Shown here piece by piece: positions 1-35,363 of a stretch of DNA of 35,363 nt. Numbering within the stretch: the stretch's first letter is position 1; every line of letters starts with the position of its first letter. The notes under the pieces were generated by a model. It worked only from the letters and a program-made list of their open reading frames with translations, had not been told where the DNA came from and did not search any database. The translations under genes were made by a program, and so were the position numbers. The stretch is from a virus: IMG/VR virus record IMGVR_UViG_3300023196_002791, positions 1 through 35,363 of that record; one strand, given 5' to 3'.

Positions 1-96
1 CTAAAGGGCAACCGCCTTGCAACCCAGATCACCGAACTGACCGGGCTGGTCATCATGTTTATGTGCGCTGAACCAGTCAAGGAGACAAACCAATGA
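1..96 (+). CDS. 3' end of small membrane-associated-looking protein (partial, allelic copy)
   Basis: This reading frame is open from the first base and stops at 94-96. It encodes the last 31 residues of a protein whose full-length version is at 35091-35291. The two C-termini differ by few residues (for example ILFMCAEPAKETNQ there and IMFMCAEPVKETNQ here). It overlaps the next start by ATGA. It is best read as the second haplotype of the same gene, cut by the contig edge, not as a separate gene. Function is unknown. Confidence 0.7.
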   Translation, partial: LKGNRLATQITELTGLVIMFMCAEPVKETNQ

Positions 97-560
97 GCGT
101 AGACTTGAGCGGCAACCCGACACCTATGCGCACCCGCGACGGAAGGCGGGCTGACTTTGTGCGTGTCAATGGGCACGACAAAGCCGTTTACCTCGTTCAG
201 TTCCGCCCTGAACAGGCTTATTTTCCAAATGGACAAATCCATAGCGGAGACGCGGAGCATGATATTGACCTCATCGGCCCGTGGTGGGTTGTCGGGGAAA
301 CCTACCTGCACGACGGCAAGGATGAATGCCCGCTGCCGAAAGGCGCGAAGTGCTGGCGGCACTATCCCAATTGCATCTATTTGGCGGCGTGGGCCAATGT
401 GGTAGCCTACACCATCACAGAGATGCCGCCCGTGAAGCTGTCTGTGGCGGACGAGTTGCGAGAACTTATCGTAAATGAACTGGGCTATACATCCAGCTTT
501 AGGGCTAAAGTCGCAGCCCTCGCTGATCGGCTGGACAAGGAGGGCCGGGGCAATGACTGA
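93..560 (+). CDS. Hypothetical phage protein, variable cassette
   Basis: A 155-residue soluble protein starting at an ATG that overlaps the upstream stop (ATGA), with AAGGAG about 8 bases before it. The N-terminal part (MRTRDGRRADFVRVNG) resembles small conserved phage proteins that begin with a 'DGRxA' strand and contain a short beta-rich domain, but I cannot name a function. The middle is rich in Trp, Tyr and Cys; the C-terminal third looks helical (ELRELIVNEL, FRAKVAALADRLDKE). It is the last gene of the rightward unit, and only 7 bases separate its stop from the o-spanin stop on the other strand. The other end of the contig joins the same downstream sequence without this gene, so it appears to be present in only part of the population. 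Confidence 0.75.
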   Translation: MSVDLSGNPTPMRTRDGRRADFVRVNGHDKAVYLVQFRPEQAYFPNGQIHSGDAEHDIDLIGPWWVVGETYLHDGKDECPLPKGAKCWRHYPNCIYLAAWANVVAYTITEMPPVKLSVADELRELIVNELGYTSSFRAKVAALADRLDKEGRGND

Positions 561-567
561 CTTGCTT

Positions 568-780
568 TTAATCGCAGCCCGCTTCCAGCTTGACGATCAA
601 CTCCGCCGCCGCGATCCGAACTTCAGGATGCGGGCTGTGTTCCACGATCTTCTCTGCCAGCGCATCTTGAGCGGACGCAGTACCATTGCAGATCGCTGCG
701 CTACTTCCGATCCTTACCCCACCGCAACCGCTCAGCGAGAACACGATCAGCAAGGGAAAGATCGCCATCAATCGTTGCAT
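568..780 (-). CDS. o-spanin (Rz1-like outer-membrane lipoprotein)
   Basis: A 70-residue protein with a short N-terminal hydrophobic signal and a lipobox L-S-G-C at residues 16-19, so the mature lipoprotein would begin at Cys19. After the lipobox it has a short, partly helical periplasmic part. It overlaps the 3' end of the i-spanin gene in another frame, the usual Rz/Rz1 arrangement. O-spanins anchor in the outer membrane and pair with the i-spanin to fuse inner and outer membranes at the last step of lysis of Gram-negative hosts. The start was chosen at the ATG preceded by AGGAG 7 bases upstream; a GTG 15 bases further up is possible. In the alternative haplotype the last codons change (ending GCV instead of GCD), but the frame is kept. 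Confidence 0.8.
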   Translation of the reverse strand: MQRLMAIFPLLIVFSLSGCGGVRIGSSAAICNGTASAQDALAEKIVEHSPHPEVRIAAAELIVKLEAGCD

Positions 781-3742: not shown

Positions 3743-4192
3743 TTACGCCCCTTTCGCGGCTTGGATCGCCGCTTTGATTTGCGCCGTTTCGGTTGCGCCG
3801 ATCCGACCATCTGCAAGGATGCGGTTCACCGCTTTGGCGGGCATGAACTCGCGCGCCAATTGGATCAGGTGGTTTCTCCGGGCGATCTTTTCGGGCGAAG
3901 CATCTGCAACATTGTTCGGGTCCGCCGCCACATCAATCAGCATCTTTTCCAGTTCAGCTTGCCCGCGTTCGGAACTGTTGAGCCGGGTCATCATGGCCGA
4001 TCCATCGACAAGATCGCCTGTCACTTCGTCGTAAAACACCATGGTGATATCTTCAAATAGCGACAGGTCCACGGACAACATTCGTTCGGAAACCTCGCCC
4101 TTTTTCATAAAGGCGGGATGAGGTTTCAGACCGTGATGGTTATAACTGCCGTCCGCGTCGTTGAATAAAAAGTAAATGTCTCTGACGGGCAT
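3743..4192 (-). CDS. Hypothetical protein immediately downstream of the tail fibre
   Basis: A 149-residue protein whose ATG overlaps the tail fibre stop (TAATG), so the two are translationally coupled. The N-terminus ([21 protein letters not shown]) looks like a small beta domain. The C-terminal half is helical (EKIARRNHLIQLAREFMPAKAVNRI, then IGATETAQIKAAIQAAKGA). Position suggests a fibre-associated or fibre-assembly (chaperone-like) role, but no family is recognised. A second tail component is an equally good guess. Confidence 0.7.
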   Translation of the reverse strand: MPVRDIYFLFNDADGSYNHHGLKPHPAFMKKGEVSERMLSVDLSLFEDITMVFYDEVTGDLVDGSAMMTRLNSSERGQAELEKMLIDVAADPNNVADASPEKIARRNHLIQLAREFMPAKAVNRILADGRIGATETAQIKAAIQAAKGA

Positions 4193-5886
4193 TAGGTTAC
4201 ACTCCTGTAAGTCACGCGCGTTCGCATTGTTTCGTAGGTGTTATCATTCGGCCCCGCTGTTGAATCCGCCCATTCAATCCCAGTGATTACCCCGTCGCTT
4301 GGTGCGGCTTGACCAGATGTCAGAGTACCTGACATCGAGGAAGCGCTACCCCAATCAGAATAACTCGACCACGATCCGTTTTGTTCCGCGCCAAGAGTAG
4401 AACCACCAGCACCACCGGGAATAACCTCGACACTTATCGCGGCAGCATCATCAGGCAGAACCCCGGCGTCCGTGACCGTCACCGTCCAGTCGATATAGTC
4501 GGTGTTATCGGTCATCGCTGTAATTTCCAACGCGGCCCATTTGGTCGCATCATTTAGCTGTCGGATGATTAGACGACCACCATCAACGCTCGCCAAATAT
4601 GCAGCCAAATCTCGGCTGTCGTCATCCGTTTCGCTGATATAAACACCTGTCACGCTTCCTATCGTGACGTTATCGAACCGCAAGTTTCCAGCACCGGGGT
4701 CTGCGTCCGTTACAGTCGTGCTGAACGTATAGTTGAAGCCCCCGCTAAGGCCCGCTGCGCCGTCCGCACCGTCAGCGCCGTCCGCACCGTCAGCGCCGTC
4801 AGCGCCGTCCGCACCGTCAGCGCCGTCCGCACCGTCAGCGCCGGTCGCACCCGTGGCACCCGTGGCACCCGTGGCCCCGTCCGCACCGTCCGCACCGTCA
4901 GCGCCGCTCGGACCCGTGGCACCCGTGGCCCCGTCCGCACCGTCCGCACCGTCAGCGCCGTCAGCGCCGGTCGCACCCGTGGCACCCGTGGCACCGGCTG
5001 CGCCCGTTGCACCCGTAGCCCCCGTGTCACCCTTGCGGTAGAATTGCACCGAAACGGGGTCGTTATCGGCCAGCGCTGTGCCCCCAACGCCACCTGTCAC
5101 AGTCAGGGTCGTCACGCCCGAACCGTTAGCCGCAGCCGTTACTGTGAACACCGCGACCTTAGCGGACGTGACGGTATTACGAACGATCAACTCACCTACG
5201 TCCCAAGCGTTGACAAAACTGGAAAGATCGGCAGCGCTCTTATCCGCGTCAGCAATGAAAATTTCAGTGACGCTGGCCACGGTCGCATGGTTGAAACGAA
5301 TGTCACCGCCCGGAATACCAGCCGCAGCGGTGCCGGTATCGAACAGGTAGAGGAAACCGGGGTCGCTGCCGTCTGCCCCGTCAGCACCATCTGCCCCGTC
5401 GCTCGGCCCCGTCGTCGTCTCAAGGTCCAGCCCATCGGCGGAAAATTTGAGATACTTGGACGCCCGATCTGTCGCCCGGCCCACGCTGGTTGTCACGGCT
5501 TCCGAAGTCGGCTCAACCATCAGCGCCCGGTCAAACTTAGTCAGCAACCGCGACAAATGCCGATAGACCTGATCCATCGCATTGTTGAACAAGCTGGCAG
5601 TGAAGCCCGCGCGTGATCCGATATTGCTGGCCCGCTCAACGCTATCCGCCCACAAAACCGCGTAATATGTCGATCCGTCCGCTGGCGTTGTCAGTGTCAC
5701 CACGCCCGACGACGTGCCCGCCCCCGTGACCGTGTAATCGGTATCAAGCACCAGCGGCGTGTCAGACCCTTGCTTGTAAACCACCAGTTCCGCATTGGCG
5801 GCGAAGTAGAAATCAAGCCCGATTGTGTCCACACCGTTCGCCAGAAGCGACGGCCCGACCTGCATATTGTTTTCAGTGTGCGCCAT
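4192..5886 (-). CDS. Tail fibre protein with T7-type N-terminal domain and collagen-like repeats
   Basis: A 564-residue protein. Residues 1-135 fit the N-terminal virion-attachment domain of T7-like tail fibres (start [34 protein letters not shown], then [15 protein letters not shown]). A short GAD stretch at about 161-172 leads into a beta domain. This is followed by a collagen-like tract of about 30 Gly-X-Y triplets (almost all GAT or GAD) and a second, related beta domain (GFNYTFST... matching GFLYLFDT... of the first). The C-terminal part is Ser/Gly-rich and may contact the host. Collagen-like tracts trimerise and give fibres length. Two 2OG-oxygenase-fold genes lie downstream in the same run. 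Confidence 0.88.
4745..5033 (-). repeat. Collagen-like Gly-Ala-Asp/Thr coding repeat
   Basis: Degenerate 9- and 18-base units (on the plus strand gtccgcacc and gtcagcgcc) repeated through about 290 bases and encoding roughly 30 Gly-X-Y triplets in the tail fibre. X is almost always Ala and Y is Asp or Thr; one triplet is GPS. Such tracts change length easily by slippage or recombination, so fibre length may vary between phages, and assembly through it deserves caution. Confidence 0.9.
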
Positions 5887-31482: not shown

Positions 31483-32663
31483 GCGACCAACCCAAAACAT
31501 ACCCCGATGGCATTTACTGGCGGATGCCGTTCGAAGAATACCTTGCGGTCCCGGCCCTGTCGTCGTCTGGCGTCAAGGCGCTGCAAGCCAGCGCCGCCGA
31601 CTTCTGGTCGCGGTCCTGGATGAACCCGAAACCCGCCGAAGATGACGACAGCCCAGCCAGATCTCTGGGCCGGGCGTGGCACACGGGCGTTCTGGAACCG
31701 TCAGAATTCCCGCTGCGCTATGCCCGCGCTCTTGAGCCGGGCGATATCGGCGAAAACGTCCTGATGACAGACAGCGAGGTCAAAGCCCGGCTGAAAGATA
31801 TGGGCGAGGCGCAGACCAAGGCGGGCGAGGTTGCCGCCGAGCGGGCGAAGCGCCTTCTGGCGGTCGATCCTGACGCGCTGATCTGGTCGCACGAAAAAGC
31901 GCTGTGGGAAATCTCTATCGGCGCGCGCGAAATCCTGTCAGCAAAAATCTATGACCGATTGAGCGACGAGATTGACACGCTCTGGCGCGTGGATCAGGTC
32001 GCGGCCCTGTTGGGCAATGGTGTGCCAGAGGTCACGGTGATCTGGACCGACGAAAACGGCACGAAATGGAAAGTGCGCATTGATAGCCTGAATTCGCAAG
32101 GCTTCGTCGATTTGAAAACTTTTGGCAATCAACGCGGGCAGGAATTGCGGCAGCACCTTTGCAACGAATTCCGTTATCGCCAATACTACATTCAGGCCGC
32201 GCTCTACCATGAAGCGGTCCAGACCATTCCCGATCTGCCGATCATAGGGGAAGCGCCGCCGATCCTGTCCGATATCCGCAAGCACCTGGGCGAACACATC
32301 GCCGAAAAGCGCTTTGCCAGTTGCACCTACATTTGGGCGCAGACCGGCGGTGTGCCAAATGTCATGGTGACACCTATCAGGCTCTATCACCTGCCGCCCG
32401 GCATGGATGCCGCGACGATCCTCACCGACGACGCGCCCGAAGATATCAGCGAAGGCAACGCGCCAAGCGAGGTTCGGAAATATCTCAATCCGACCCGATT
32501 GCACCGCAAGGCGCGGCTCCACATCGACAGCGCAGCGCGGGAATACCGGACGCATATGGAATTCCACGGCGACAAAGGCGCGCCGTGGGCACCGCTCTAT
32601 CCGGTCACGCCGCTGACCGACGATGATTTTAACGACTATTGGCTTGATGGGGAAACGGCATGA
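31479..32663 (+). CDS. RecE/exonuclease VIII-like PD-(D/E)XK nuclease
   Basis: A 394-residue protein. Early region GRAWHTGVLEPSEF carries the His often seen in this family (H68). The catalytic core is E184 (PEVTVIW), then D202 (KVRIDSLN) and D211-L-K213 (GFVDLKTF), the D...DxK signature of PDDEXK exonucleases, followed by QYYIQAALYHEAV. It digests one strand of a double-stranded end, making the 3' overhang for the annealing protein encoded directly downstream (ATGA overlap). The C-terminal 130 residues are unlike the E. coli protein and may be adaptor sequence. Confidence 0.87.
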   Translation: MSDQPKTYPDGIYWRMPFEEYLAVPALSSSGVKALQASAADFWSRSWMNPKPAEDDDSPARSLGRAWHTGVLEPSEFPLRYARALEPGDIGENVLMTDSEVKARLKDMGEAQTKAGEVAAERAKRLLAVDPDALIWSHEKALWEISIGAREILSAKIYDRLSDEIDTLWRVDQVAALLGNGVPEVTVIWTDENGTKWKVRIDSLNSQGFVDLKTFGNQRGQELRQHLCNEFRYRQYYIQAALYHEAVQTIPDLPIIGEAPPILSDIRKHLGEHIAEKRFASCTYIWAQTGGVPNVMVTPIRLYHLPPGMDAATILTDDAPEDISEGNAPSEVRKYLNPTRLHRKARLHIDSAAREYRTHMEFHGDKGAPWAPLYPVTPLTDDDFNDYWLDGETA

Positions 32664-33439
32664 AAAACGAAATCGCAACCGTGCAGCAGGCCGATTTGAC
32701 GCCTGCCGAGCGCATGTTTTCGCAACTGATGGAAGCCGCGAATAACCCGGATATTGACGCCGGGAAAATTCAGGCATTGGCCGATGTGCAAACCCAAGTC
32801 CTGCGCACCGCCGCCGATGAAAAGGCGCGGCTGGCGCGCGATGCGTTCAACCGGGCCATGTTTCAGGCCCGGCGAGGTATGCCGCGCATTACCCGTGACG
32901 GCGCGATCACCAACAAGGCAGGCAATGTGCAGTCGCGTTACGCCACCTATGAGGCCATCGACCGAGTGGCGCGGCCCATTTGGGAAGCCGAAGGTCTCGA
33001 CGTGGGCTTTGAATTGAGCGGCGACGAAACCGGCAAGGTTTTGGTGACTTGTATTGTTACCAGCATGGACGCGGAACACGGCAGCCACGTTGAGCGCTTC
33101 GGCCCGATGCCGCTGGCCATCGACACGACCGGCAGCAAGAACGCCACCCAGGGCGCGGGATCGGCTGGCAGCTACGGCAAGCGCCACACGCTTTGCGCCG
33201 CGTTCAACATCATCACCGAGAACGAGGATAAAGACGGCGCGGCAGCGCGGCAGATCGCAAAGCCGACCGAAGCCTGGCAGGCCGAGGTATCCGCCAAGGC
33301 CCAGGCCGCCGCCCAGAACGAGGCCGCAGGATCGGCGGGCGCGTACAAGCGCTACCTCGACACCCTGCCGCAGATGCACCGGGGCTGGCTGTTCGACAGC
33401 GGGGAACACGACGCCAACAAGCGCACGGCGGGCATTTGA
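32660..33439 (+). CDS. ERF-family single-strand annealing recombinase
   Basis: A 259-residue protein. The stretch AFNRAMFQARRGMPRITRDG, then GNVQSRYATYEAIDRVARPI and SAGSYGKRHTLCAAFNIITENEDKDG, is the core of the ERF superfamily: the 'Y.t.e.i...v.p.l...Gl' motif and the 'G...tY..Ry.l...fgi..ede.dd' motif. The C-terminus has an extra, poorly conserved segment (YKRYLDTLPQMHRGWLFDSG). It anneals complementary strands produced by the RecE-like nuclease, used in recombination, circularisation or repair of phage ends. Starts by ATGA overlap. Confidence 0.9.
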   Translation: MKNEIATVQQADLTPAERMFSQLMEAANNPDIDAGKIQALADVQTQVLRTAADEKARLARDAFNRAMFQARRGMPRITRDGAITNKAGNVQSRYATYEAIDRVARPIWEAEGLDVGFELSGDETGKVLVTCIVTSMDAEHGSHVERFGPMPLAIDTTGSKNATQGAGSAGSYGKRHTLCAAFNIITENEDKDGAAARQIAKPTEAWQAEVSAKAQAAAQNEAAGSAGAYKRYLDTLPQMHRGWLFDSGEHDANKRTAGI

Positions 33440-34629: not shown

Positions 34630-34884
34630 ATGAAACCCATCCCAGAAATCGTGACCGAGATTGCAGATCGCTATGGCGTCAACCCATCTGAAATGACGGG
34701 CAGAGGGAGAACCCGTGATATGTATGTCGCGCGGTCGCACGCAATTTTCTTCAGCTTTCAAAATGGCCACAAACCGGCAGACATTCGTGAGTATTTCCGG
34801 CGAGATCGCACATCGATGCACGCATCGTTGGGGGCGCACCTCGTCCATTTCCGGAACGGCTGGACGCAAGGAACTGCGCTATGA
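34630..34884 (+). CDS. DnaA C-terminal-domain-like DNA-binding protein
   Basis: An 84-residue protein consisting of little more than a DnaA domain IV-type fold. EIVTEIADRYGVNPSEMTGRGRTRDMYVARSHAIFF corresponds to the helix after 'V...ygv...dl.g..R.r.....R..am.l', and ADIREYFRRDRTSMHAS to the 'ig..fg.rDHtTVlhA' signature helix that reads the DnaA box. There is no ATPase domain. It could occupy DnaA boxes in the host or phage origin, or act as a regulator. AAGGAG lies 8 bases before the ATG chosen; an upstream frame start would overlap the membrane peptide. Confidence 0.78.
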   Translation: MKPIPEIVTEIADRYGVNPSEMTGRGRTRDMYVARSHAIFFSFQNGHKPADIREYFRRDRTSMHASLGAHLVHFRNGWTQGTAL

Positions 34885-35087
34885 GCTATCGTCAAATGAC
34901 CAAAAGGGTCGCCGCACCTAGCCTGCGCAACATGACAGCCCTTGCTGTCTCGGACCTTGTGATGCTGCTGCCGGATGATGAACTGAACAAGCTTTCCGTC
35001 CGCTGCCACAATCTCCAAAAAAGCAGGTACATCGTAAAACTTCGCAACCAACTGGGCGAAGCCGAATCCATCACCTACGGAGAATGA
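34881..35087 (+). CDS. Hypothetical protein, 68 aa
   Basis: Starts MSYRQMTKRVAAPSLRNMTAL at an ATG overlapping the DnaA-like gene stop (ATGA). Mostly helical and charged (VSDLVMLLPDDELNKLSVRCHNLQKSRYIVK), no motif. The tight coupling suggests it is a partner or a co-expressed small protein. No family recognised. Confidence 0.62.
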   Translation: MSYRQMTKRVAAPSLRNMTALAVSDLVMLLPDDELNKLSVRCHNLQKSRYIVKLRNQLGEAESITYGE

Positions 35088-35090
35088 AAA

Positions 35091-35291
35091 ATGATCGCCA
35101 CCACTTTCTGCTTATTCTTGGGGGCAGCACACATCCCCGACCTGCAACCCCGCATCATCGAGTACGACTGCGGGATGAACGAGACTCAGTGCCAACTAAA
35201 GGGCAACCGCCTTGCAACCCAGATCACCGAACTGACCGGGCTGGTCATCCTGTTTATGTGCGCCGAGCCAGCCAAGGAGACAAACCAGTGA
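35091..35291 (+). CDS. Small protein with N-terminal signal-like segment (alternative haplotype end)
   Basis: A 66-residue protein starting MIATTFCLFLGAAHIPD, a short hydrophobic, Cys-containing start that could be a signal peptide. It has Cys-rich centre (YDCGMNETQCQLKGN) and a hydrophobic segment (LTGLVILFMCAEP). GGAGAATGAAAA precedes the ATG. Bases 35196-35291 are repeated with few changes at 1-96. In this haplotype the stop is followed after 12 bases by the o-spanin end. Function unknown; possibly an exported or membrane protein acting at late infection. Confidence 0.65.
   Translation: MIATTFCLFLGAAHIPDLQPRIIEYDCGMNETQCQLKGNRLATQITELTGLVILFMCAEPAKETNQ
35196..35291 (+). repeat. Near-identical to bases 1-96
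   Basis: The first 54 bases are identical and 5 of 96 positions differ. After the stop codon, similarity ends abruptly. The pair marks one genomic site seen as two alleles, not a phage terminal repeat. Confidence 0.9.
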
Positions 35292-35308
35292 CCATCAACT
35301 GAACTACA

Positions 35309-35363
35309 CGCAGCCCGCTTCCAGCTTGACGATCAACTCCGCCGCCGCGATCCGAACTTCAGG
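35309..35363 (+). repeat. 55-base exact match to 573-627
   Basis: Identical over the whole 55 bases up to the contig end, and lying within the o-spanin gene. A length of 55 is a usual assembler overlap size, so this is the closing overlap of a circular graph. Confidence 0.9.

Follow-up and report, generated by a model that had tools for sequence, protein, structure and literature searches.

The window analysed here is the whole of IMG/VR record IMGVR_UViG_3300023196_002791, a sequence of 35,363 bases that is classed as linear. Its ends carry two versions of one site. At the record start (form A, or haplotype A) the 3′ end of a gene encoding 66 aa (1-96, plus strand, its 5′ part lost at the contig start) is followed by an accessory ORF of 155 codons (93-560, plus strand), found in this form only and preceded by AAGGAG upstream of its ATG, and then by a spanin gene on the opposite strand. 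At the record end (form B, the gene-less haplotype) the whole 66-aa gene (35091-35291, plus strand) is followed by 17 other bases (35292-35308) and then by the last spanin codons, the contig ending with a second copy of bases 573-627 (35309-35363). The exchanged block therefore comprises 476 bases (97-572) in A versus 17 in B, and the 42 bases adjoining it on the left hold five SNPs between the two forms. Thus A and B differ by more than the presence of a gene. The motif CAATGA is found on the plus strand at the left edge (91-96) and again at the right edge (551-556). Two versions of gene content at the site are present within the record, on one copy of the backbone.

Sequence comparison showed that bases 1-96 are identical to 35196-35291 at 91/96 positions. 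The first 54 bases match from 35196 onward without a mismatch, and the differences lie at positions 55, 69, 72, 77 and 93. On the right side, the stretch common to both haplotypes (573-627) equals 35309-35363 at 55/55 bases, the preceding base being T572 in one copy and A35308 in the other. Both repeats had been described in the original prediction and were borne out. No other exact repeats of at least 54 bases were found in the 35,363-base record, therefore the 54-base and 55-base end repeats are not due to chance. Closed into a circle, the record measures 35,195 b if the 155-codon gene is included and 34,736 b if it is not, a difference of 459 b, in agreement with the circle sizes proposed earlier (about 35.2 kb and 34.7 kb).

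The genes on either side of the site face each other. On the minus strand lies a likely o-spanin lipoprotein gene, complete in haplotype A (568-780, within an ORF spanning 568-795 with an ATG at 780). This label is based on its LSGC lipobox, its overlap with the i-spanin gene and a 32% match in loci L099/L101 downstream of an endolysin; a search against PHROG gave no significant match. It is followed on the same strand by an Rz-like i-spanin (701-955; phrog_1026, E 6.8e-8) and an endolysin of the N-acetylmuramoyl-L-alanine amidase type (1113-1739; phrog_822, E 1.4e-25; Pfam Amidase_2 30.1 bits, cut-off 26). Further along, a 564-aa fibre-like ORF (4192-5886) contains a collagen-like (GXX) part with a 9-base tandem periodicity at 4730-5062. 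Reading towards the site from the other direction are a 90-aa gene with a helix-turn-helix resembling the DnaA C-terminus (34639-34884, plus strand, the ORF being listed from 34612; Pfam Bac_DnaA_C E 2e-7, 31.4 bits, just below the cut-off of 31.5), a 68-aa gene (34881-35087, plus strand) and the 66-aa gene. An ERF-like gene lies at 32660-33439, its product being 49% identical over 257 aa to a stretch that bears the annotation ERF family protein in Dunaliella viridis virus SI2 (HQ332136).

Both neighbours of the variable gene are kept in frame. In both A and B the 66-aa ORF keeps its TGA stop, and the minus-strand spanin frame ends in AGCD before its stop in A and in AGCV before its stop, at 35304, in B. 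Preservation of the o-spanin frame and of the stop preceding it had been predicted, as had the location of the site where two transcription units converge, and the order of the ORFs agrees. A GTG at 35288 together with the 17 bases of B opens a 4-codon frame ending at 35302. A terminator scan returned one weak hairpin, which lies inside the 66-aa gene and occurs in A (38-52) as well as in B (35233-35247). We do not regard it as a meaningful terminator, the number of scan hits being near the chance level.

The 155-codon gene

The 155-residue gene had been placed at 93-560, and an ORF of 155 codons is indeed found there. Since 129/2000 random sequences contain an ORF as long, open length alone is weak evidence of coding. 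Codon usage, in turn, supports the view that the ORF is protein-coding. Its codon bias is 0.137 in its own frame and -0.123 or lower in the other five, and is similar to that of the small genes in the same operon (0.081-0.230). Wrong-frame windows scored as high in 1/200 cases, whilst every right-frame window taken from the training genes, late genes and others (40/40), scored above it.

The encoded protein had no significant match in Pfam, PHROG or NCBIfam (best E values for NCBIfam and PHROG 0.08 and 0.46), and no credible relative in collections of viral contigs, phages, plasmids and genome contigs or in 22 related records. Two low-scoring matches were taken as chance: one in Kapi1 (E 0.5) falls within a head-binding-domain protein, and one in a Lactobacillus MAG (L091) covers a short stretch of a 304-aa ORF with a lipoprotein-like start. 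A single-sequence structure model was too poor to use (mean pLDDT 36). Our guess is that the product might be a dispensable early protein acting on the host.

Gene content at the end of the rightward operon

Viral contigs were scanned with five proteins of the window. Those from the 155-codon, endolysin and ERF-like genes found no confirmed relative, and the 66-aa and 90-aa proteins found a single contig, L004 (11,253 bases). This phage has a replication module different from that of the window, and among its remaining genes are matches to families of phage exonuclease, single-strand binding protein, DNA polymerase and helicase. When 44 ORFs of the window were compared with L004, only the 90-aa and 66-aa genes gave strong matches (93% and 92% aa identity; 91.4% and 90.1% at the DNA level), with two weak matches elsewhere. 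The 68-aa gene is missing in L004 between the same neighbours, the window having 210 extra bases between two copies of ATGA. After its 66-aa gene, L004 has 20/23 bases of the start of the 155-codon gene (with one 3-base gap) and a stop after ten codons, and this start therefore appears, from the alignment, to persist in L004 as a remnant. Within 8814-9304 of L004, about 22 bases are present in a second copy after the 10-codon remnant. The L004 cassette also lies near a facing gene, a minus-strand ORF of 542 aa from 9620. The lack of the 68-aa gene and the truncated start of the 155-codon gene in L004 together suggest that genes come and go at this operon end.

Assembly ends and the origin of the two forms

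The reading we favour, to which we give a probability of about three in four, is that the record holds two co-existing haplotypes of one site. A de Bruijn assembler would have opened a circular (or circularly permuted) phage genome, some 35 kb long, at the strain bubble formed by this polymorphic site, so that the contig would start on the gene-bearing branch and end on the gene-less one. In the population, the rightward operon would then end with the 155-codon gene in some genomes and without it in others. A de Bruijn assembler run at k = 55 leaves overlaps of 54 or 55 bases at a branch. Passages of PMC11443906 give a maximum k of typically around 55 and describe strain variants as forming bulges which break assemblies. 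The end overlaps of the window are 54 and 55 b, with divergence directly beyond each; the left overlap is one below the presumed k of 55, for which end trimming is the only explanation we can offer. The whole contig links branch A to the backbone on the right, and only the 54 bases link it on the left; for branch B the left link is the whole contig and the right link only the 55 bases. Genes other than those at the record ends occur once each. The original prediction of two haplotypes at one locus therefore stands as the best reading, given the k-like overlaps, the single-copy state of the other genes and similar cases among relatives; no second contig spanning the junction was recovered, and that both forms were present in one sample we infer from the assembly.

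End overlaps were also checked in ten related records, namely SI2 and nine IMG/VR records chosen by length or closeness from 66 loci. Start and end overlap exactly by 127, 99 and 49 b in three of the IMG/VR relatives and by 448 b in SI2. In G014 the 127-b prefix equals 36217-36343 and the 82-b suffix equals 129-210; this record is opened at a one-base bubble in the same manner as the window, with k = 127. Four of the ten (G002, G017, G019 and G020) have no such overlap beyond short repeats. The remaining record, G009, has a copy of its 127-base prefix only: its start (1-127) recurs 1.3 kb before the end (34954-36278; loci L075/L076), near the portal gene, possibly representing a longer strain bubble. 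Full-size related records measure 33.3-37.5 kb, with which either circle is compatible, and a complete genome here is therefore plausible. The closest record, G002 (IMGVR_UViG_3300023281_001185, 21,967 b), is 99.9% identical and covers 4865-26814 of the window, stopping short of the site. One of its own ends falls among the repeats of the fibre gene, the other within the terminase gene.

The position of both copies at the ends of one contig, together with the 448-base repeat at the record ends of SI2, would also suit a single linear genome in which both are real, as imperfect terminal repeats. We consider this highly improbable, as the end copies are gene fragments (the 66-aa gene is cut at its 5′ end and the spanin after 18 codons), and the repeats are unequal (91/96 versus 55/55), separated by a block in one copy only, and end at k-like lengths. 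An assembly chimera, in which one branch came from another phage having only the 54- or 55-base stretch in common, so that the two forms were not alleles, is quite unlikely. The cassette upstream of the site is also present in the otherwise different phage L004, so k-mers of the site can occur in unrelated genomes. However, branch A would need the 54-mer of the 66-aa gene as well as a continuation into the spanin of this phage, and branch B the early operon of this phage as well as the exact 55-mer of its spanin. Either branch thus requires two exact matches, and about 10% of the bases here distinguish L004 from the window.

The two forms could also be related by a single event in one lineage, either a simple deletion that turned A into B or a simple insertion that turned B into A, for example between the CAATGA copies. 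The lengths of the forms differ by 459 b and the CAATGA copies, at 91 and 551, lie 460 bases apart; identity is complete over the first 54 bases and the last 55; and the 68-aa gene is missing in L004 exactly between ATGA copies, such that deletions of this kind may occur in the operon. Yet when the forms are joined at CAATGA, the 16- and 17-base tails beyond it are no closer than shuffled sequences (3092/5000 shuffles as good), and the adjoining 42 bases hold the five SNPs, both of which later divergence could explain. We consider a simple event of this type unlikely, and deletion between the CAATGA copies as the whole story is not supported, given the unlike tails. An origin of the 17 bases of B as a decayed gene start is likewise not supported: 6 or 8/17 bases are alike in the comparisons made, and these bases resemble neither the start of the gene (2373/20000 shuffles as good) nor the L004 sequence (1964/20000). 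The density of five SNPs in 42 bases is about that of the divergence between the window and L004 in the 66-aa gene (90% identity). L004 has the base of A at two of the five SNP sites (55 and 93), that of B at two others (72 and 77) and that of neither form at 69, and with this mixture neither form is plainly ancestral. Because of the 17 unrelated bases and the five SNPs, replacement of a block fits better than a recent deletion and is the most likely route as judged from sequence. Recombination with a relative would have swapped a block reaching from within or just after the 66-aa gene to the last codons of the facing spanin, and the phage's own ERF-like gene could supply the recombination agent. 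Of the clean insertion/deletion point originally proposed, the intact flanking frames are confirmed, whilst the unrelated 17-base filler and the five SNPs in 42 bases argue against its being clean.

Relation to known systems and flexible gene content

The window shares its gene order for capsid, portal, terminase and internal protein with Dunaliella viridis virus SI2 and IMG/VR relatives, TerL being 57-62% identical in the nearer related loci, and with SI2 it also shares the ERF-family protein (49% identical). Unlike these relatives it carries the 155-codon gene, which is in none of the 22 records searched. Moreover, the operon end (the 66-, 68- and 90-aa genes and the spanins) found no match in the ten compared relatives. 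HQ332136 (L005) is named as a virus of Dunaliella viridis, with an alga given as host, and is a tailed phage with the structural block of the window; its algal host label looks doubtful.

Two bodies of work describe comparable variation. PMC3909814 and PMC7468147 describe metaviromic islands and flexible genes, near-identical phages of one habitat differing by single genes or short blocks at defined places; a table in the former lists 252/390 flexible genes as hypothetical, and the latter infers recombination from a shared gene pool. The present site is similar to such islands in that the variable gene lies between neighbours kept in frame, and two versions of gene content are seen at one place, on the single backbone copy. 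It differs in being seen in one record rather than by read recruitment, and in that the gene lies at an operon end, is without a known relative and is present or absent rather than replaced by a homologous variant. Likewise, as with the strain bulges in the passages of PMC11443906 cited above, the contig is broken at a variant site with overlaps of about k = 55, whereas the variant here is a whole gene, the graph is circular and both versions lie in one contig.

The two-haplotype reading fits one more case of a known phenomenon, the flexible genes of phages, with ordinary strain variation caught by the assembler. A published viral record listed as linear can contain, at its two ends, both alleles of a polymorphic site, and from such a record it is therefore possible to close the circle and recover the polymorphism. 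The 155-codon gene adds one orphan accessory gene to the many in phage populations. A broader and improbable idea is that the space separating the last early gene from the facing lysis genes might be a plug-in slot, in which single accessory genes, probably for host takeover or counter-defence, would be gained and lost at start-codon boundaries by ERF-type recombination of the phage itself, with the upstream cassette (the 90-aa helix-turn-helix and 66-aa genes) as a landing sequence exchanged among unrelated phages. The convergent end was read for ORFs at two of 14 endolysin-scan loci, with a mixed result: in L106 (G017) 9 bases separate the end of a 182-aa minus-strand ORF from that of an 82-aa ORF behind endolysin and i-spanin-like ORFs, whereas in L101 another plus-strand gene follows. 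A general slot at the convergent end is therefore not claimed. Were the slot idea correct, anti-host genes of this phage group would be well worth seeking at the operon end beside the lysis genes.
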